A stretch of 64,000 nt of DNA from Ignavibacteria bacterium (GTDB lineage Bacteria; Bacteroidota; Ignavibacteria; Ignavibacteriales; Ignavibacteriaceae): positions 2,501 to 66,500 of the forward strand of contig JAUXVN010000129.1 in NCBI GenBank assembly GCA_030684555.1. The letters run 5' to 3'. The notes under the pieces are model-generated. The model was not told the DNA's origin. It saw only the letters and a program-made list of their open reading frames with translations, and did no database searches. Shown piece after piece: positions 1,244 through 11,595 of the stretch. Both the position numbers and the translations under genes were made by a program. Numbering within the stretch: the first letter of the stretch is position 1; each line of letters begins with the position of its first letter.

Positions 1244-1975
1244 TTAGTAAGCAAAAAATCCGAAAAAGATTCCGGTTTGAATAAATAACGCATCCCCTTT
1301 TAATGTTGAAGGAGTATTGAAAATTTCTTTCTTATTATCTATTTGCCAATCTTCACTAAAAGTAAAAGCATATCCGGCACCAATTCTAAATGAGACAAAA
1401 CGATAGACCGGAATATCGACATTCAAAGTAGGAGCAAAAACAAAATGTGTTTTATTTATTTGTCTGCTAAAGCTTGAAGCATACTGAGATGTATCTGACA
1501 ATTCGTTCCAGATATTATCCCATTGAAAAGTTGATTTATTTCTAAACAATTCAATTTTTGTATCACCACCACCGATAATTGCGCCAATAGAGATAGCAAA
1601 ACTTCGACTCAAAGGAATTGAATACTCAAGTGTTAACCCGCCAAAACTTGAAGAAAAAATTATTTCTCTTTCGAACCCGTCCTTAAATGCTGTACTGGAT
1701 GTTGAACCGCCAAAGCCGATTCCTCCGATTCGCAAATTTGGAATAAAACTTAAATAGACGAATCCGGCTCCACCAGAAGCAAAAAATCCACTGTTGCTCA
1801 GTTCAGGGACGCCAAACCCAATTAACTTTGAATTCAGTTCATTAAAATTTGGGATTAACCAAGCCGGAGAAAACCCGCCACCTGCTCCAAAAGGTGAGTC
1901 GAAATATCTTTTTTCTTGAGCCTCAACTTTCAAGGAAAGAAGAAAAATCAAAAAGAGTAAAATCGATCTACGCAT
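1244..1975 (-). CDS. Outer-membrane beta-barrel protein, unknown function
   Basis: Predicted 243-residue exported protein. Residues 1-19 are a signal peptide ending at VEAQEKRYF. The rest is rich in Gly and aromatic residues, with alternating stretches (GGIGFGGSTSS, FAISIGAIIGGG, FVSFRIGAGYAFTF) and a C-terminus ending in an aromatic (GIFFGFFAY), the usual marks of a small outer-membrane barrel. No enzyme motif is visible. It sits 29 bp behind the transglutaminase-like gene and 15 bp before rfbB, so all are probably co-transcribed. Function is not assignable. Confidence 0.7.
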   Translation of the reverse strand: MRRSILLFLIFLLSLKVEAQEKRYFDSPFGAGGGFSPAWLIPNFNELNSKLIGFGVPELSNSGFFASGGAGFVYLSFIPNLRIGGIGFGGSTSSTAFKDGFEREIIFSSSFGGLTLEYSIPLSRSFAISIGAIIGGGDTKIELFRNKSTFQWDNIWNELSDTSQYASSFSRQINKTHFVFAPTLNVDIPVYRFVSFRIGAGYAFTFSEDWQIDNKKEIFNTPSTLKGDALFIQTGIFFGFFAY

Positions 1976-2004: not shown

Positions 2005-3450
2005 TTATTTTTCGTTTTCATCTTCAGAAAGATATGTTACTTTCATATCATAATTCCATCTATCAAAATATAAATTCCCTCCACGCCATTCAACTTCACC
2101 GCGTTGAAAATCAAGCGTTTCGCTTCGTGGATAAATTTTTCCAGGATACAGAGGTTTTCCATAATCGTCATTCACAATATACCGATATGGGTCTATTCCT
2201 GAAGCATAAAAATATTTCACCAAATCATCATTGTTTTGCTGAATTCCAAAATCCGGGTCAACCGTTATCCAGCCGAATTCATCAAAATAAACTTCAGCCC
2301 AGTCATGCAAATTCACAGCCCCCGGATGGAGCATCCAACCGCTTTGCCATTTAGCAGGTATTCCATTATACCGACAAAGTGTTATGAATAATAAAGATTT
2401 AATTCCGCAATCTCCATGCATGTTGTCCAAACAATAATCTGAAATTGCACTTAATGTAGAATATTCCCGAGCACTCGCCCACGGAATTTTTTCTGTGAGC
2501 CACTCTATTATCAATTTAATTTTTTTATAATTGTTTTTTTCTGTCCCAATAATTGATTGAGAAATCTCTTTTAACTTATCACTAAAGTGAATATGCGGAA
2601 GTTGTTCAGTTGTGAATGATGAATACACTTCTGAGTTTTTAGAAACAGTATACTCTTTAGTATCATCTAATTTTAAGAATGAACCATAGGACAAATACTC
2701 TAATTCATAAGAGAATATTGTAGGTTGTCCCGCAACTGTAGTCTGTTCAAGATAGATACTGCTGTGTGAAAATTCATTACCACTAATTATGTGGTTTTTA
2801 GGATTAACTTCTTTCAAATTAATATTCAACTGACGAGGATTATCACTTCTCGGGTAAGGCAGCCAGCACCTAATAACTTCCCCTGCCGGAACCACATCAG
2901 GCTTCACTTTCAGCTCATAATTAATTCTAAATTTTACAGGTTTCAGCAGTTGCCTTTTTGTCAAGTTGGATTCGTAAATTAGTGCGGGAATGTGAACAGA
3001 CAAAAAATCAGCAAGTTTATTCTCGCCAATGCTATAAATGCTCTCTTTTACTTTCTTTGCTTCTTTATCAATTCTAAAAAGATTTGGGATAGCATTCTTG
3101 AAATATCTTTTCTCCCCATTTATTAATTTCATTTCGAGTGCTTTAGATGATTCCCATTCAACAAGCATTTGGTCGGTGAGTTGGGGATAATATTTTTTTA
3201 ATTGATTAAAAATGTAATCTCGATTTCTTGTGAAATCTTTTTCAATTCTATCCATTAATTCTTTTTGAAATGAGAGTTCGTATTTATCTAATTCTGTAAT
3301 CTGTGAAAATGTAATTAATGAATCTATAATTAAACCCGCTTTTTTATAATTCCCCTCACCAATTTCGGATTGCAATCCCGGAAATTTTTGCTGACTGAAA
3401 ACAGTTGTATTCAGTACAAGGACGAATGTTATTAAAATTTTCTTTAGCAT
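2005..3450 (-). CDS. Secreted transglutaminase-like domain protein
   Basis: A 481-residue exported protein with signal peptide 1-19 (cut near VFSQ). Residues ~170-280 resemble the beta-rich domain that often precedes bacterial transglutaminase-like cores. The core carries a full triad: C348 in HGDCGIKSLLF, H382 in NLHDWAEVY, and D398 in WITVDPDFG. Such proteins act as periplasmic cysteine proteases or transglutaminases; the substrate is unknown. The gene starts 8 bp after the KdsC-type phosphatase and leads into the barrel protein and rfbB, suggesting an envelope role. Confidence 0.85.
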   Translation of the reverse strand: MLKKILITFVLVLNTTVFSQQKFPGLQSEIGEGNYKKAGLIIDSLITFSQITELDKYELSFQKELMDRIEKDFTRNRDYIFNQLKKYYPQLTDQMLVEWESSKALEMKLINGEKRYFKNAIPNLFRIDKEAKKVKESIYSIGENKLADFLSVHIPALIYESNLTKRQLLKPVKFRINYELKVKPDVVPAGEVIRCWLPYPRSDNPRQLNINLKEVNPKNHIISGNEFSHSSIYLEQTTVAGQPTIFSYELEYLSYGSFLKLDDTKEYTVSKNSEVYSSFTTEQLPHIHFSDKLKEISQSIIGTEKNNYKKIKLIIEWLTEKIPWASAREYSTLSAISDYCLDNMHGDCGIKSLLFITLCRYNGIPAKWQSGWMLHPGAVNLHDWAEVYFDEFGWITVDPDFGIQQNNDDLVKYFYASGIDPYRYIVNDDYGKPLYPGKIYPRSETLDFQRGEVEWRGGNLYFDRWNYDMKVTYLSEDENEK

Positions 3451-4352: not shown

Positions 4353-5198
4353 ATGAAAAAATTTACTCTTATCATGTTTTCCTTATGTATTTTATTAACC
4401 ATGCAAGTTTCAGCTCAATGGATAAATAAATGGACTTCAGCACCAATCAGTTATACAACATTAACAGGATGGTTCAATTTCGAAAAAACTGAAGATAGTT
4501 GGAAACAAAGATTTTATTACTTAGATACGCTAAAATTTATGGTGTACGCTGATCATTTTTCGCAAAATCCTCAATACACATATAATTTTACTAATGCAGA
4601 ACAACTTGCAGGTCAACAATTATATTCAATGGCTCAGGATGTTACAGGTGATGGAATTACAGAATTCTATGTGCTCGGCTGGTATGGGAATTCTACTGAT
4701 TACCGTCAAGGTTTCAAGATTTTAGATATAACTACAAACACAGCAGTTTTCGAAAAAAACAATGTTGGAGCTTATTATTCGTACCCTACTTTTGCAGATG
4801 TTGACGGTGACGGAGTTATAGAATGTTACTTTATAAAATATCCGTATCCTTTTGATGGTACTTACACATATGAAGTTTATACCACAGGAACAACCGGTTT
4901 AAATACAAATGATAAACCGATTCGATTTGAACTAAAACAGAATTTCCCTAATCCATTTAATCCATCTACCAAAATTGAATTTTCTATTGATAGAAGTGAA
5001 AATGTCAAATTGGAAATTTTTGATATAACCGGCAGCAGTGTAATTACTCTTCTTAATGAATTTAAGGAAGCTGGGGCTCATTCAGTAATTTGGGATGGGA
5101 AAGACTCACAAAATTTTTCTCAACCGACCGGGGTTTATTTTTATCGGTTAAATATTTCAAACCATGCTGAAAATCGAAAAATGATAATTTTAAAATAA
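4353..5198 (+). CDS. T9SS cargo protein with C-terminal sorting domain
   Basis: A 281-residue exported protein. I place the start at the ATG at 4353, because MKKFTLIMFSLCILLTMQVSAQ is a clean signal peptide; the open frame reaches back to 4122 but that extension is not protein-like. The middle carries two Asp-rich calcium-like loops (DVTGDGITEF and DVDGDGVIECYF) as in FG-GAP/VCBS repeats. The end is a type A T9SS sorting domain: QNFPNPFNPSTKIEF, then GVYFYRLN and a basic-hydrophobic tail. The protein is likely passed through the T9SS and fixed on the surface or released. It precedes the PqqD cassette by 68 bp but need not belong to it. Confidence 0.85.
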   Translation: MKKFTLIMFSLCILLTMQVSAQWINKWTSAPISYTTLTGWFNFEKTEDSWKQRFYYLDTLKFMVYADHFSQNPQYTYNFTNAEQLAGQQLYSMAQDVTGDGITEFYVLGWYGNSTDYRQGFKILDITTNTAVFEKNNVGAYYSYPTFADVDGDGVIECYFIKYPYPFDGTYTYEVYTTGTTGLNTNDKPIRFELKQNFPNPFNPSTKIEFSIDRSENVKLEIFDITGSSVITLLNEFKEAGAHSVIWDGKDSQNFSQPTGVYFYRLNISNHAENRKMIILK

Positions 5199-5266: not shown

Positions 5267-5521
5267 ATGAATTCTTTTAATATTCCGCCAAACGTCGCAG
5301 TAAGCGATACAGGCTTTGTGTTCCTACCTACTACGGGGGAAACATTTACTTTAAATGAAATCGGCAAAGAAATTTTTAAGCAGCTTCAGCAAGGTAAAGG
5401 TTATGATGAGATTGTAGATTCAATTTTATCCTTTTATGATATAGATAAAAACTCTTTCGAAAGAGATTTTAATGATTTTGTTATGCAGTTAAAAAATTAT
5501 TCATTAGTAGTTGAATTATGA
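5267..5521 (+). CDS. Small PqqD-like protein
   Basis: An 84-residue protein with the PqqD-fold pattern: a short beta region carrying a Thr-Gly-Glu turn (LPTTGETFTLNEIGKEIFKQL at ~23-43), then helices with the GKGYDEIVDSIL and LKNYSLVVEL pattern. PqqD proteins bind a leader peptide and hand it to a modifying enzyme; many stand-alone homologues occur beside ATP-grasp or radical-SAM enzymes. It has a strong AAGGAG site and its stop overlaps the ATG of the ATP-grasp gene (ATGA), so the two are translationally coupled. No precursor peptide was recognised nearby. Confidence 0.72.
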   Translation: MNSFNIPPNVAVSDTGFVFLPTTGETFTLNEIGKEIFKQLQQGKGYDEIVDSILSFYDIDKNSFERDFNDFVMQLKNYSLVVEL

Positions 5522-6552
5522 ATATTGCCGTAACAGGTCTGAATGCTACCGATAATCCGGGACCAGGAATTCCGGTAATCAGAAGTATCAAAGCACACCC
5601 TGATTTTAATGGGAATATAATCGGTTTAATCTACGACTCATTAGAACCCGGAATTTATATGGAAGAGATGGCGAATAAATGCTATTTAATTCCATATCCT
5701 TCAAGTGGACTGGATATGTTATTAGAGCGTATTTCAGCAATCCATGAAAAAGAAAAAATTGACCTCATCATTCCAACACTTGATTCAGAACTTTATGGTT
5801 TTGCAAAAATTAAAGACAGATTAAGTGAGCTCGGAATTAAAACATTCTTACCTACTATTCAACAATTAAACATAAGGGCAAAAGATAATTTATTTGACTT
5901 TTGCACATCGCACGAAATTAAAGTACCAAAAAATATTCTACTCACATCTTCAAATGATATTTACAAAATTCCTAAGGACTTTAAATATCCGGTAGTTGTA
6001 AAAGGTATATTTTATGATGCTTACATCGCAAATAATTTTGATGAAATTAAAACCGCCTTCCATAAAATGAGCGCCAAATGGGGTTATCCTATTATTGTTC
6101 AAGAGTTCATCAAAGGGAATGAATTTAACGTTGTGGCTTTGGGCGATGGCACCGGAGAAACAATTGGTGCGGTTCCGATGAAAAAACTTTACATTACAGA
6201 TAAAGGTAAAGGTTGGGCTGGAATTACAATTGATGACCCGAATCTATTAAATCTTTCGAAAAAAATTATTTCAAAAACCAAGTGGAAAAGCGGAATGGAA
6301 CTTGAGTATATAAAATCGGAAGAGACGAACGAATATTACTTACTCGAAATTAATCCACGATTCCCGGCTTGGGTTTATCTTGCCCCAAACGCTGGTCAAA
6401 ATCTTCCGTATGCTTTAGTTCAATTAGCTATGGGCGAAACCATTAAACCATTTGAACAATACGATGTAGGGACAATATTTGTGCGGGCTGCATGGGACTT
6501 GATTACTAATTTAAAAGCTTTTGAAAAAATTGCAATCCAAGGAGAAATATAA
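5518..6552 (+). CDS. ATP-grasp carboxylate-amine ligase, CarB/PylC-like
   Basis: A 344-residue ATP-grasp enzyme with a Rossmann-like N-domain (MNIAVTGLNATDNPGPG), an ATP-binding Lys in YPVVVKG (K162), a second strand motif VQEFIKGNEFNVV (195-206), and the metal-binding LEINPRFP (E277, N279, R281). Such enzymes activate a carboxylate as acyl-phosphate and join it to an amine or thiol. The layout resembles the CarB-domain/PylC group rather than D-Ala-D-Ala ligase. It overlaps both neighbours (PqqD-like by four bases, decarboxylase by one), so all three products probably act together. The substrate is unknown. Confidence 0.85.
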   Translation: MNIAVTGLNATDNPGPGIPVIRSIKAHPDFNGNIIGLIYDSLEPGIYMEEMANKCYLIPYPSSGLDMLLERISAIHEKEKIDLIIPTLDSELYGFAKIKDRLSELGIKTFLPTIQQLNIRAKDNLFDFCTSHEIKVPKNILLTSSNDIYKIPKDFKYPVVVKGIFYDAYIANNFDEIKTAFHKMSAKWGYPIIVQEFIKGNEFNVVALGDGTGETIGAVPMKKLYITDKGKGWAGITIDDPNLLNLSKKIISKTKWKSGMELEYIKSEETNEYYLLEINPRFPAWVYLAPNAGQNLPYALVQLAMGETIKPFEQYDVGTIFVRAAWDLITNLKAFEKIAIQGEI

Positions 6553-7907
6553 TGGATACAAAAAAACGATATGAACGACCGGTAATCACAAAACATTACT
6601 CAGGTTTTATGAACAAAATCGGAACAAGTTCATTCTCAAAACCCAAAAAAGATATTGATGGTGTTGCCGTTACTGATTTAGTTGAAAAATTCGGATCACC
6701 ATTGTTTGTTATATCAGAAAAGAAGATTAGACAAAATCAGCGTAATGCGGTTCGTATTTTCAAAACACGCTATCCAAAAGTTCAGTTTGCATGGTCTTAT
6801 AAAACTAATTATTTAAATGCTGTCTGTTCAGTATTTCATCAGGAGAATTCATGGGCAGAAGTTGTTTCAGAATTTGAATATGATAAAGCGCGTAAACTTG
6901 GCATTAAGGGAGAGAACATTATTTTCAATGGTCCTGATAAAAGTCGAAATGCACTTTTAAAAGCCATAAAAGAAAAAGCTAAAATTCATATAGATCATTT
7001 TGATGAACTTTATGAAATAATAGAATTATGCGACACCGAAAAACTTAAAGCAAAAGTTGCAATCAGAATTAATATGGATGTAGGTGTTTATCCTAAATGG
7101 GATCGATTCGGTTTCAATTATGAAAATGGCGAATCGTGGCAGGCAATTAAAAGAATAATTACAAATAAAGACCTGGAATTAATTGGGCTTCACACACACA
7201 TAGGAACTTATATGATGTCTACCGAAGCCTATAGATTAGCAGCGTCAAAATTAGCCGGACTCGCAAGAAGCATAAAAGAACAATTTGATATCGTACTTGA
7301 ATATATTGATCTCGGTGGCGGTTTCGCTTCACATAATACTTTACTCGGACAATATTTACCTGCAGAAGAAGTAATTCCCTCAATTGAACAATTTGCTGAT
7401 GCAATTTCATCAGGATTATTTGAACTAAATTTCAAGAATGACGAGTTACCTTTACTCATTTTAGAAACCGGGCGAGCATTAATTGATGATGCAGGATTTT
7501 TAATCTCAAGTGTATTAGCAAACAAAAGATTATCTGATGGAAAGAAAGCACTCATAATTGATGCAGGGGTAAATATTTTATTTACAGGTTTTTGGTATAA
7601 ACATAAAATTACTCCGGCTCAGGATTGCGGCTTACATACTGAAGAATCAGCAATTTTTGGACCTCTCTGTATGAATATAGATGTTGTTAGAGAAAGCATC
7701 ACACTACCTCTACTTAAAAAGGGGGATAAACTAATAATTGAATATGTTGGAGCTTATGACATGACCCAATGGATGCAATTTATCACACTAAGACCAAATG
7801 TAGTTATGATAATGGAAGATGGTTCAGTTGAATTAATCAGAAAATCTGAAACGCTTGATTACATTTCTGAAATGGAATTACTTCCATTAAAACTATCGTT
7901 AAAATAA
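6552..7907 (+). CDS. PLP-dependent decarboxylase, LysA/ornithine decarboxylase (fold III) family
   Basis: A 451-residue fold-III PLP enzyme. The PLP lysine is K84 in FAWSYKTNYL, followed by LHTHIGT (H216), the phosphate-binding GGG at 255-257, ETGR at 305-308, and GPLC with C373, which supplies the second-subunit catalytic Cys in this family. All catalytic positions seem intact. Diaminopimelate decarboxylase is the closest familiar type, but the linkage to a PqqD-like protein and an ATP-grasp ligase argues for a specialised substrate, either a free diamino acid or a ligated one. Start ATG overlaps the previous stop. Confidence 0.83.
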   Translation: MDTKKRYERPVITKHYSGFMNKIGTSSFSKPKKDIDGVAVTDLVEKFGSPLFVISEKKIRQNQRNAVRIFKTRYPKVQFAWSYKTNYLNAVCSVFHQENSWAEVVSEFEYDKARKLGIKGENIIFNGPDKSRNALLKAIKEKAKIHIDHFDELYEIIELCDTEKLKAKVAIRINMDVGVYPKWDRFGFNYENGESWQAIKRIITNKDLELIGLHTHIGTYMMSTEAYRLAASKLAGLARSIKEQFDIVLEYIDLGGGFASHNTLLGQYLPAEEVIPSIEQFADAISSGLFELNFKNDELPLLILETGRALIDDAGFLISSVLANKRLSDGKKALIIDAGVNILFTGFWYKHKITPAQDCGLHTEESAIFGPLCMNIDVVRESITLPLLKKGDKLIIEYVGAYDMTQWMQFITLRPNVVMIMEDGSVELIRKSETLDYISEMELLPLKLSLK

Positions 7908-7926
7908 AAAGTGAACAGGAATTAAA

Positions 7927-10098
7927 TTGAAGCTCCAAACCTTATTAAACGAATCAATCTTGATGTTCATTGATTCTATTTTATACTCTTACGCTCAAAT
8001 ATTTTTTTCGAACAGGAGGTGGCTTGGGGCAATTATTCTATTTGTTACACTACTATTCCCCACTGTTGGTTTAATGGGGCTTCTCGGAGTGATTATAGCC
8101 AATATTACCGCCGCAATTCTGAAATTTGATCAGTCAAAAATAAAAAGCGGATTTTATGGATTTAACGGTATTTTATTTGGTGTAGCTGCAGGTTACTACT
8201 ATGAGCTAAGTTTTTTCATGCTCATGCTTATACCGGTATTTCTGATTATCACTTTTTTTATTTCTGCTGTGTTAGAGCATTATTTAGCAGTAGCCTTCAA
8301 TCTTCCCGGATTGAGTCTTCCCTTTATTTTTTCTTTATACATCTTTATAATTTTTCTGACTAATTATAGTAACATACAAGTTCACCATCTGAATTTTCCG
8401 TACGACAATATTTTTGCAAGTCTGCCAATATTCATTAAAAATTACTTTAAGTCTTTAGCTTTAATAGTTTTCCAGCCGAGTGTATTTGCAGGAATTCTTT
8501 TATCAATTGGGATTCTAATTTTTTCAAGAGTTTTATTTGTCCTTAGTATTGTGAGTTATAGTTTGTCAGCAATTTTATTGACTCTGATATTACCCGTCCA
8601 AGCAGAACAACTTGCAATATTAGTAGGATTTAATGCGATTCTAACTGCCTTTGCACTTGGTGGAGTTTTAATCCTTCCATCACCAAAAAGTTTTTTGTTA
8701 GTTTTAATTTCTACATTAATTGTAGTTATCTTCGCAGGATTTTTCCACAGATTATTAAATGGTACACTTCTACCACTTTTAGTTCTTCCATTCAACTTTA
8801 TAGTTCTTTTCACAATCTATAGTTTGAAATTTAGAAAAGAGCAGAGTGAATTGGAATTGTTATACTTTGCTCCCGGCTCACCTGAAGAAAATTTGTACTA
8901 TCATCAGAATAGAAAAAACCGATTTGACAGATTCAAATATTTTTTCCCGGAACTTCCATTTTTTGGTGAGTGGTTTGTTTCACAAGGTTTTGATGGCAGT
9001 TATACTCATAAAGATGCTTGGAAGTATGCCTGGGATTTTGTAGTAGTTGATGAGAAAAATTCTCAGTTTTCAAATGAAGGGAATCAATTAACCGATTACT
9101 ATTGTTACAAACTTCCTGTATCGTCACCACTGGATGGAAAGGTTGTGAAGGTTGCAAGTTCTATCCCAAATAATGAAGTTGGAGATGTTAATCTCGATAA
9201 GAATTGGGGGAATACGGTAATCATTGATCACGGTGAAGGCTTATTTAGTGCAGCTTCACATTTAGATTCTGATACAATTAAATTGAAGGAAAATGATTAT
9301 GTTTTAAAGGGAGATGTTATTGGACTATGCGGAAATAGTGGTCGTTCACCATATCCTCATATTCATTTTCAATTTCAATTGACTGATAAAATCGGGGACA
9401 AAACTTACCGTTTTCCATTTGCACATTTTATCGAAAAGCGAGAGGACAAACTAATCGCCAGAAGTTTTGATTATCCTGACGAGAACAGCATAGTACAAAA
9501 TATTGTAATACATAAAACAATTAAAAAAGCATTTGGATTAAGATTAGGTGATAAAATTACTCTTCAGTGTTCGATAAATGAAAAAACTTTTACCGAGGAA
9601 TGGGAAGTAAAAGTCGACATCTACAATATGCTCTATATAGAGAACAATAATCACGAAACTGCATTCATCTATCTTACAGATAAAGTTTTCTATTTTTCTC
9701 ATTACTTGGGCGGGAAATCATCTGCACTTTATCACTTCTTTCTGTTAGCATATCAAGTTCCATTATGCTATCACGCCAATCTTGAATGGAAGGATCAATA
9801 TTCACTCTCACAGTTAACGGGAACATCAATAAGATATTTAACCGAGTTCTTCCTTTCGTTTAAGAATTTCATAAAAGCTGAAGGAAGTTTCAAATATTTA
9901 GAACGTGATGAAAAGAGCGATTCATTTATAATCGATAATAAAATCGAATTAAAAGGAACAGGCGTTCTTAAATCATTTAAGAAAACAATGTCCGGTCAGA
10001 TTAAAATAAATGGAGATGGAGAAATCGAATCATTTCATTTTATTAATGCTAACAACTCAAAATTTAATGCTACTTTAACAAGCAATAATGGAGATTGA
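7927..10098 (+). CDS. Urea-transporter-like membrane protein fused to M23 peptidase
   Basis: A 723-residue fusion. Residues ~1-300 are a polytopic membrane domain with the urea-transporter signature GFYGFNGILFG (75-85) and a degenerate second-half copy VGFNAILTAFALGG (233-246), matching the internal twofold of UT channels. Residues ~345-490 are a LytM/M23 metallopeptidase with putative zinc ligands H361, D370 and H480 (HIHFQ) and catalytic H445 (AASHLD). Residues 500-723 have no motif I recognise. The start is a TTG with CAGGA upstream. The gene is 19 bp after the decarboxylase and overlaps the next gene, placing it in the cassette. The peptidase should face the periplasm and act on peptidoglycan or a peptide. 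Confidence 0.85.
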   Translation: MKLQTLLNESILMFIDSILYSYAQIFFSNRRWLGAIILFVTLLFPTVGLMGLLGVIIANITAAILKFDQSKIKSGFYGFNGILFGVAAGYYYELSFFMLMLIPVFLIITFFISAVLEHYLAVAFNLPGLSLPFIFSLYIFIIFLTNYSNIQVHHLNFPYDNIFASLPIFIKNYFKSLALIVFQPSVFAGILLSIGILIFSRVLFVLSIVSYSLSAILLTLILPVQAEQLAILVGFNAILTAFALGGVLILPSPKSFLLVLISTLIVVIFAGFFHRLLNGTLLPLLVLPFNFIVLFTIYSLKFRKEQSELELLYFAPGSPEENLYYHQNRKNRFDRFKYFFPELPFFGEWFVSQGFDGSYTHKDAWKYAWDFVVVDEKNSQFSNEGNQLTDYYCYKLPVSSPLDGKVVKVASSIPNNEVGDVNLDKNWGNTVIIDHGEGLFSAASHLDSDTIKLKENDYVLKGDVIGLCGNSGRSPYPHIHFQFQLTDKIGDKTYRFPFAHFIEKREDKLIARSFDYPDENSIVQNIVIHKTIKKAFGLRLGDKITLQCSINEKTFTEEWEVKVDIYNMLYIENNNHETAFIYLTDKVFYFSHYLGGKSSALYHFFLLAYQVPLCYHANLEWKDQYSLSQLTGTSIRYLTEFFLSFKNFIKAEGSFKYLERDEKSDSFIIDNKIELKGTGVLKSFKKTMSGQIKINGDGEIESFHFINANNSKFNATLTSNNGD

Positions 10099-10100
10099 TT

Positions 10101-10736
10101 TTGAAAAATTATATCATAACAGGTTTTTTAACATCGACAATAATTATACTGTTTTTTGTCACACAACTTTTATCCCAGCAAAAGGATAGCAGAATAATCG
10201 CTTTCAATTCATCAATTAAATATGAAATTAAAGGTGATTACAAAAATGCAGCTTCGGAAATCCAAAAAATTTATTCTGAGAACAAAAATAATTACTTAAT
10301 CAATTTAAGGTTGGGCTGGCTAAACTATATCTTAAAAGATTATGCTAAGTCTTTGGATTATTACAATACTGCATCTCAATTAAATAAAGAAAGTATTGAG
10401 GCGAAAATTGGCTCAACTTACCCACTTTCAGCTTTGGGTAAATGGGATGAAATAGTAGAAATCTATAAAAACATTCTCAAGGTTGATGCAAATAATTATA
10501 CAGCAAATTTGAAATTAGGTCAAATTTTTCTTGAGAGATATGATTATGCAACTGCAAAGAAATATTTAGAGAAGATAAACAAACTTTATCCGGCAGAGTT
10601 TGAACCAAATTTATCGCTTGGATATACGTACTATTATTTAGGCAACATCCAAAAGGCAAAAGAACTCTTTACATACGTATTAATGCTGGATGAAAACAAT
10701 TCATTAGCATTATCAGGTTTAAAATTAATCAAATAG
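10101..10736 (+). CDS. TPR-repeat protein with N-terminal signal/anchor
   Basis: About 211 residues with an N-terminal hydrophobic segment (NYIITGFLTSTIIILFFVTQLL) followed by about five TPR units (for example LGWLNYILKDYAKSLDYYNTA and LSLGYTYYYLGNIQKAKELF). I choose the TTG at 10101 because GGAG at 10090-10093 is seven bases before it; the in-frame TTG at 10095 sits almost on top of that site. It is likely periplasmic and likely a partner-binding scaffold for the M23/urea-transporter fusion upstream and the barrel downstream. Confidence 0.75.
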   Translation: MKNYIITGFLTSTIIILFFVTQLLSQQKDSRIIAFNSSIKYEIKGDYKNAASEIQKIYSENKNNYLINLRLGWLNYILKDYAKSLDYYNTASQLNKESIEAKIGSTYPLSALGKWDEIVEIYKNILKVDANNYTANLKLGQIFLERYDYATAKKYLEKINKLYPAEFEPNLSLGYTYYYLGNIQKAKELFTYVLMLDENNSLALSGLKLIK

Positions 10737-10761
10737 TATTCAGTTTTCCGGGAAAAATATT

Positions 10762-11595
10762 TTGAAATTTCTTGTCTTTACTTTCTTACTGTTGAGTCTG
10801 TTTAATCAGTCTTCATTTGCAGATTCAACTTTTGTAGCTCCATCATATTTTTTTACATATGGTGACTATTCGAATAAATCATACTCGATTTCCAATGCCG
10901 TTTACCTTTCTACATATCTGACAGATAGAATCACCTTAGTAAACCATTATGAATATTTAAATATAAATCTTAGAAAAGATTCAACATATAAGCAGCACAC
11001 GCTGCTTGGCGGAGCAATTGTTAACTTCTTCCCGTACTATCTTAAATTCTTTTACAGTTACAAGAGGGGTGATTATTTAATTGATAATAATAAAATATAC
11101 TCTGATCATACAAATCTTTATTCAATAGAAGCTATTTATTATCGAAATCTTTTTTATTTGGGATTAAGTTATTCATTTGAAAATGCAATTGGTATTCTCA
11201 ACACGAATAACCTTACACATCAACAAATTCATCAGGTAACCGGCAGAATTGAATATATTGTTTCCCCTTCTCTTTATTCATCCCTTCGTCCAAATTATAG
11301 TGCCTTAAAAGACGGTCGCAAACTTTACTCAGTGTCGGGAAAGGTTACATATTTCCCGATAATAAGTACATCAATTAAACTTTACGGGTTTTATGGAGAA
11401 AGAGCATACTATTTTGATAATGATATTTTAACTCTATTTAATCAAGATGAAACTCAAAAATATCAAGCCGGTATTCAATTAGATTATTACCCATCATATT
11501 ATATGATGCTTTCAACCGGGTTCCAACATACAAAGTTTCAATCGTTTAGTATTAATTATTTTGTTGCCGGTATTCGCTACGGACTATTTATTTAA
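10762..11595 (+). CDS. Small outer-membrane beta-barrel protein
   Basis: A 277-residue exported protein starting at TTG. The signal peptide is 1-20 (ending SSFADS). The body is dense in Tyr/Phe and alternates polar and hydrophobic residues (NHYEYLNINLRKDS, FYSYKRGDYLIDN, SSLRPNYSALKDG), ending FVAGIRYGLFI, typical of a 10-14-strand barrel. The pairing with a TPR protein just upstream (25 bp) recalls YaiO-type barrels, but this is only a resemblance. It is the last gene of the cassette before a hairpin at 11611-11639. Confidence 0.7.
   Translation: MKFLVFTFLLLSLFNQSSFADSTFVAPSYFFTYGDYSNKSYSISNAVYLSTYLTDRITLVNHYEYLNINLRKDSTYKQHTLLGGAIVNFFPYYLKFFYSYKRGDYLIDNNKIYSDHTNLYSIEAIYYRNLFYLGLSYSFENAIGILNTNNLTHQQIHQVTGRIEYIVSPSLYSSLRPNYSALKDGRKLYSVSGKVTYFPIISTSIKLYGFYGERAYYFDNDILTLFNQDETQKYQAGIQLDYYPSYYMMLSTGFQHTKFQSFSINYFVAGIRYGLFI

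Follow-up and report, generated by a model that had tools for sequence, protein, structure and literature searches.

The locus described here is a cassette of six genes within a stretch of 64,000 nucleotides (the window) from an Ignavibacteria bacterium, corresponding to positions 2,501 to 66,500 of contig JAUXVN010000129.1 (GenBank assembly GCA_030684555.1). The six open reading frames (ORFs) are nearly overlapping and all lie on the plus strand at window positions 5267-11595, in a host genome of 4.34 Mb. The first encodes an 84-residue PqqD-type protein (5267..5521; PF05402) with the fold of a recognition element (RRE) for ribosomally synthesized and post-translationally modified peptides (RiPPs). 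It is followed by a PRK12767-like ATP-grasp ligase of 344 residues (5518..6552; ATPgrasp_Ter) and a fold-III pyridoxal phosphate (PLP) decarboxylase of 451 residues that resembles FigC and FslC (6552..7907; Orn_Arg_deC_N and Orn_DAP_Arg_deC). The fourth gene (7927-10098; PF03253 and PF01551) encodes a fusion, designated UT-M23, of a urea transporter (UT) domain and an M23 metallopeptidase-fold domain. The last two encode a tetratricopeptide repeat (TPR) protein with an N-terminal signal or anchor (10095..10736, the TTG start at 10101 being likelier; several TPR models) and a predicted 14-stranded outer-membrane barrel of 277 residues (10762..11595). The PqqD and ATP-grasp genes share an ATGA overlap, the ATP-grasp and decarboxylase genes overlap by 1 base, and gaps of 19 bp and 25 bp precede the UT-M23 and barrel genes, respectively. 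An earlier note on this DNA, made from the letters and their translations, had described these six genes, and the ORF calls bear out its positions, strand and tight spacing. Its family labels agree with the profile searches at the family level, except that the barrel rests on predicted structure instead. Scans for promoters, terminators and repeats gave nothing above chance.

The cassette is widely conserved. Close homologues of the decarboxylase (52-88% identity) were found in 11 of 40 related genomes besides the window's own, with members of the Ignavibacteriaceae and Melioribacteraceae among the relatives. Each of the 11 Ignavibacteria loci that have such a homologue keeps the order PqqD, ATP-grasp, decarboxylase, UT-M23 and TPR, with the barrel, or a divergent barrel in its place, next after the TPR gene. 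A scan of genome contigs returned at least 584 matching stretches, and the 80 best all came from Bacteroidota, broadly defined (Ignavibacteria, Chitinophagaceae, Bacteroidales, Pedobacter, Mucilaginibacter and others). The gene order is kept in nearly all of those 80, and in about 90 loci overall. Where the contig is long enough, the TPR protein is present in 65 of 65 loci, the barrel family in 61 of 65 and the ATP-grasp protein in 75 of 76. Median spacing across loci is -4 bp between PqqD and ATP-grasp, 26 bp between ATP-grasp and decarboxylase and 16.5 bp between decarboxylase and UT-M23. Among 296 genomes taken from across the phylum, 26 carry an orthologue of the decarboxylase (at least 592 bits; next best score, 175), and the same 26, with no others, carry those of the ATP-grasp protein (at least 417 bits, with no other match at 1e-40) and of UT-M23. 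These genomes share ancestry and so are not 26 independent events, but they represent many genera and several classes. Since the order is kept across loci and the genome sets are identical, far beyond chance, the six genes are a genuine unit. The earlier note had named a lack of co-occurrence elsewhere as the result that would count against its proposal, and the cassette passes this test. No relatives of the decarboxylase were found on plasmids at E 1e-40. Three loci carry an IF-2B-family protein (PF01008) between the decarboxylase and UT-M23 genes (L114:7538-8365, L092:11437-12267 and L117:11358-12302).

The decarboxylase scored 99 bits with Orn_Arg_deC_N and 50 bits with Orn_DAP_Arg_deC. The nearest solved structure to its profile is that of the N-citrylornithine decarboxylase FigC (7kh2, 4.9e-81), well ahead of the diaminopimelate (DAP) decarboxylases (DAPDCs). 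In the phylogenetic tree it forms a clade with FigC (support 100/98), while the LysA proteins of the relatives fall with known DAPDCs; FigC is on a long branch in this tree, and weight is therefore placed on the motif evidence. DAPDCs have an arginine on the specificity helix and an acidic residue beside the catalytic cysteine, where FigC instead has Thr327, Thr330, Tyr331 and Met355 (PMC7857480). Both of these contacts to the distal group of DAP are lost in the cassette enzyme, in which the specificity-helix arginine is replaced by threonine and the acid of CE(S/T)xD by methionine. The resulting site resembles that of FigC, with a methionine after the catalytic cysteine (equivalent to Met355), a threonine for the DAPDC arginine (equivalent to Thr327) and the equivalent of Tyr331 retained. 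Thr345, Trp348, Tyr349 and Met374 are invariant across 25 diverse orthologues, and of the two signatures of the enzyme, GPLCMNID and FT(S/G)xWY, the CMNID part of the first and the whole of the second occur in 25 of 25 aligned sequences. The LysA proteins of the relatives carry CE(S/T)GD, and separate LysA-type paralogues are encoded elsewhere in the cassette-bearing genomes. With the LysA model TIGR01048 the cassette enzyme scored 219 bits, below the NCBIfam cut-off of 297.9. The lost DAP contacts, this score and the tree placement rule out an identity as diaminopimelate decarboxylase, contrary to the earlier description as "LysA-like", and a role in handling diaminopimelate is not supported.

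The cassette enzyme also differs from FigC. Positions H357, R387 and N389, which contact citrate in FigC, are I376, Q406 and M408, and FigC T330 corresponds to W348. The score against the FslC/FigC model was 238 bits, with an NCBIfam cut-off of 500. Compared with the FigC/FslC rhizoferrin pathway, the cassette is without a nonribosomal peptide synthetase-independent siderophore synthetase and adds a conserved YxxP tail and different transport genes. With the pocket residues for diaminopimelate and for citrate both lost, neither compound is likely to be the attached group, which is probably neutral. Of the clade's characterised enzymes, the five that are not DAPDCs (FigC, SbnH, AcsE, MccE and BtrK) all decarboxylate an amino acid that is already conjugated (PMC7857480). 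The sequence suggests that the cassette decarboxylase works downstream of the ATP-grasp ligase and that its substrate is a conjugate whose attached group is larger, neutral and non-citryl. Three of these five enzymes act in siderophore synthesis, which would suit a metallophore or metal-homeostasis pathway with a product that binds metal outside the cell, as the products of the FigC, SbnH and AcsE pathways do. This alternative, to which we return with the neighbouring genes, appears unlikely to us: the citrate-binding residues are lost, and the conserved genes do not include a TonB-dependent receptor.

The ATP-grasp protein scored 41.9 bits with ATPgrasp_Ter and 100 bits with PRK12767. ExNPR and many further residues are invariant in 25 orthologues, and among solved proteins it is closest in sequence to carbamoyl phosphate synthetase and the uncharacterised 2pn1. 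A comparable trio of ligase, small protein and decarboxylase is the butirosin set BtrJ-BtrI-BtrK, which consists of the ATP-grasp ligase BtrJ, an 87-residue carrier and a fold-III decarboxylase. In that pathway, the PLP decarboxylase BtrK acts on a conjugated amino acid together with the small partner protein BtrI (PMC7857480). The small partner in the cassette instead has a PqqD fold and no conserved C-terminal attachment residue, and the cassette is without aminoglycoside genes.

The PqqD protein scored 44.8 bits with PF05402 (cut-off, 23.4), and its best NCBIfam model was lasso_PqqD_Strm at 37.7 bits, under the cut-off of that model. Its orthologues have SxxGFxFxPxTG(D/E)SF in common, and their C-termini are variable. 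A LysW-type amino-group carrier role was rejected, as there is no conserved C-terminal acceptor residue. The decarboxylase has a tail of about 30 residues before the PLP domain, which in 89 orthologues follows YE(R/K/S)Px(I/V/L)xKxxxGxMNK(F/Y)G with few departures. Residues 7-24 of this tail in the window (YERPVITKHYSGFMNKIG, 6570..6623) are the candidate PqqD-binding sequence. The motif YxxPx[ILVM] is present in 89 of 89 decarboxylase tails and in 23 of 1286 other ORF N-termini from these loci. The tail overall is more variable than the enzyme (median column entropy of 1.71 bits against 0.94 bits for the whole decarboxylase), yet Y7, P10, K22 and G24 do not vary. A survey of RREs gives YxxP as the recognition sequence of lasso systems and W/Y/LxxP/L/I for the FusE, McjB, PqqD and StsC groups (PMC12710340). 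Taken together, the motif, its conservation and the synteny suggest that the tail is the likely ligand of the PqqD protein, serving as a tag for docking or as a leader fused to the enzyme. The earlier note cited the presentation of peptide substrates by PqqD-fold proteins. A search of the 89 loci for a conserved small ORF that might encode a free precursor found none, most intergenic gaps being too short for one, and the decarboxylase tail is the better candidate ligand.

The cassette thus has one feature of a RiPP system, a PqqD domain above its model's cut-off, and is without another, a separate precursor gene. Graspetides and other free-precursor RiPPs were rejected, given the lack of a conserved small ORF. 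The closest likeness is to the B1/FusE-type RREs of lasso peptides with their YxxP leaders, and the cassette likewise combines a PqqD-fold RRE with a YxxPx[IL] sequence. However, the motif is on an enzyme and not on a free precursor, and the cassette is without a lasso cyclase or B2 protease. In borosins the precursor is fused to its modifying enzyme, and M23 enzymes commonly cut at glycine. A borosin-like alternative is conceivable, in which the decarboxylase tail comprises a leader and a core (YExPx[ILV]xKxxxG-MNKFG), the ATP-grasp enzyme modifies it and the M23 domain cuts at the conserved glycine. The YxxP motif and the nearly invariant N-K-F-G segment in the 89 orthologues, the fusion of a peptide-like segment to a pathway enzyme and the RiPP-like pairing of an RRE with an ATP-grasp enzyme, where no separate precursor was found, speak for it. 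In the cassette, however, the enzyme is of another fold, there is no methyltransferase and the segment is N-terminal. The near-invariance of this segment is better explained by docking, since the cores of RiPPs normally vary, and a peptide would not fit a urea-type pore. We consider this alternative quite improbable.

The UT domain of the fusion protein (residues 1-301, 7927..8829) scored 165.5 bits with PF03253 and 108 bits with the NCBIfam urea transporter model, under its cut-off of 274.6. The AlphaFold2 model of the whole protein (mean predicted local distance difference test, pLDDT, of 89) has a urea-channel domain, an M23 domain (residues 338-516, 8938..9474) and a C-terminal beta-rich domain (residues 517-723, 9475..10095; modelled strands in 543-720). 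The UT domain matches the human and Desulfovibrio urea channels with Z ~36. It shares the fold of dvUT, UT-A and UT-B, and differs from them in its fusion to the M23 and beta domains and in the loss of Glu187. This glutamate is a polar pore residue of dvUT, and its position is nonpolar in all UT-M23 orthologues. The urease alpha subunit was not found in the window's genome, so the channel does not feed a urease, and a role in urea supply was rejected. The cargo of UT-M23 is likely specialised and other than urea. The C-terminal domain had no sequence relative in the PDB and no Pfam match; the fold listing for the whole protein is dominated by the other domains. In one of the 296 genomes, the two parts of UT-M23 are encoded in separate, overlapping frames (G045:C1:2246024-2248188), through a frameshift or through a natural split, which would help to dissect the fusion.

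The M23 domain scored 53 bits with PF01551 and matches LytM-type domains with Z ~14. The histidines and aspartate expected of an M23 enzyme, H361, D370, H445, H478 and H480, are invariant in 25 orthologues, and the first pair is unusually spaced (H-x8-D). In urea channels, the T5a-Pb loop faces the outside (PMC4357013). Given this orientation and the inverted repeat of the fold, both termini of the channel should be inside. The loops on the side of the termini have 12.4 lysines and arginines per 81 residues, as against 2.1 per 73 residues on the other side, and the bias is seen in 25 of 25 orthologues and holds without the C-terminal linker. This charge bias predicts that the M23 and C-terminal domains are cytosolic, which is at odds with a periplasmic M23 domain acting on peptidoglycan. 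The earlier note had raised a possible salvage or use of peptidoglycan-derived diamino acids, and the M23 fold and the AnmK gene adjoining the cassette in the window fit such a role. Of about 90 loci, however, only 5, the window included, have AnmK beside the cassette, and fewer have DUF1460, also cited for this theme; both are local neighbours. With the DAP contacts lost, a DAPDC identity excluded and the M23 domain predicted to be cytosolic, we regard the peptidoglycan interpretation as very improbable.

The barrel had no family match in profile searches. Its AlphaFold2 model (pLDDT 85) comprises a signal helix and 14 beta strands, with fold matches to OmpG (template modelling score of ~0.68) and FadL barrels. 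In Bacteroidetes loci, the barrel carries an N-terminal TPR region and stands before the TPR gene, and the window barrel is homologous to this fusion (hhalign 89.7%, E 1.8e-6). Two tandem TPR genes follow the barrel in some loci of the Flavobacteriales type (L082, L085, L086, L099, L102 and L113). The pairing of TPR and outer-membrane barrel is shared with the export porins PgaA and BcsC. Unlike these, the cassette gives only weak matches in the TPR region, its barrel is small and the unit has no polysaccharide synthase.

These observations can be accommodated by a co-inherited operon for the cytosolic synthesis of a small conjugated metabolite, which then crosses the envelope through two passive pores, a proposal that we hold tentatively, at somewhat below an even chance. 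The PqqD protein would bind the YExPx[ILV] tail, tethering the decarboxylase to the ATP-grasp ligase, as the motif and synteny suggest. The ligase, going by its family, would form an amide or related bond on an amino acid, and the FigC-type PLP enzyme, going by its active-site residues, would decarboxylate the conjugate. Either this product or a small neutral piece of it, cut off by the M23 domain (catalytic, if its fold is a guide) at the cytosolic mouth of the channel, would diffuse through the UT domain to the periplasm, and the TPR protein and barrel would pass it out of the cell. No ATP-binding cassette, major facilitator or TonB component is conserved with the unit in the cassette loci. 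As the pores are passive, the flux would be driven by the ATP-dependent ligation and the irreversible decarboxylation. The parts are consistent with the earlier idea of a pathway that forms an amide, decarboxylates and is linked to movement across both membranes.

The main rival is uptake with trapping, in which a small neutral molecule enters through the barrel and UT domain, is hydrolysed by the M23 domain and is trapped by the ATP-grasp enzyme and decarboxylase. Passive pores suit uptake driven by metabolic trapping, an M23 domain at the inner mouth would meet the incoming substrate first, and the two-component or extracytoplasmic function (ECF) regulators upstream of some loci could respond to a nutrient. 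On the other hand, no catabolic genes are conserved with the unit, there is no urease in the window's genome, and decarboxylation of a conjugate follows a biosynthetic logic in every characterised relative (PMC7857480). Uptake is accordingly rated as unlikely, and export of the product or a small fragment is favoured over import. Several points weigh against the proposed export pathway. UT pores narrow to only 2-3 Å at the constriction (PMC10541013), too little for a sizeable conjugate, and this counts against the export of large molecules. Carboxyphosphate-forming enzymes are also relatives of the ATP-grasp family, so the bond may not be a simple amide. The contact between PqqD and the tail is suggested by a short motif among homologous proteins. 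In the M23 domain, the first ligand pair is oddly spaced (H361-x8-D370), and the sequence aligns to solved M23 proteins over its second half only.

The genes around the cassette vary among loci. LytTR regulators are found upstream in 22 loci, histidine kinases in 20 and a GNAT acetyltransferase in 11. DUF2202 lipoprotein-like genes, which we take to encode metal proteins, are just upstream in 5 of about 76 loci (L112:7605-8339, L118:7655-8329, L119:6998-7735 and two further loci), with a background of ~0.1 per genome. An AraC regulator with an HMA-like CxxC domain is upstream in 8 loci and in the genome with the split fusion, with ~0.9 per genome. At such copy numbers, both adjacencies are far above chance, and they give a metal-flavoured lead in some lineages. 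An ECF sigma factor and a CpxP/Spy-like protein are also near the cassette in L118 and L119. These neighbours favour the metal-binding product considered above; however, they are missing from most loci and from the cassette of the window's genome. The gene directly upstream of the cassette in the window (4353-5198, plus strand) encodes a secreted FG-GAP-like protein that ends in a type IX secretion tail, and it is kept there in 18 Ignavibacteria loci; the window's genome encodes at least 150 Por_Secre_tail proteins, which tempers any link to type IX secretion. A transglutaminase-core protein (2005-3450, minus strand) and a small predicted envelope protein (1244-1975, minus strand) recur near the cassette in several Ignavibacteria. 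None of the six proteins matched a PADLOC model at E 0.001, and a role in anti-phage defence was rejected.

By the defining features examined, the unit is set apart from LysA, FslC, urea uptake, peptidoglycan recycling, free-precursor RiPPs, LysW-type carriers or defence systems. No description of the six-gene set was found in the open-access literature, although one could exist in a subscription journal; the earlier remark that no named pathway has exactly this set is upheld to that extent. As a whole, the unit is apparently undescribed, its parts being of known folds and its chemistry proposed only. The fullest version of the proposal combines RRE-guided biosynthesis with a leader, perhaps with a modified core, inside the decarboxylase, a cytosolic M23 hydrolase on a repurposed urea channel and a pump-free route across two membranes driven by cytosolic chemistry; that all of these hold together seems to us rather doubtful. 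If true, a PqqD/RRE ligand on the tail of an enzyme instead of a free precursor would be new in general, and RRE-based genome mining that seeks separate precursors would overlook such systems. Equally new in general, if true, would be a channel that carries an M23-fold domain on its cytosolic face. Present in hundreds of Bacteroidota, this apparently undescribed unit probably makes a metabolite not yet known from bacteria that are common in soil, fresh water and sediment.

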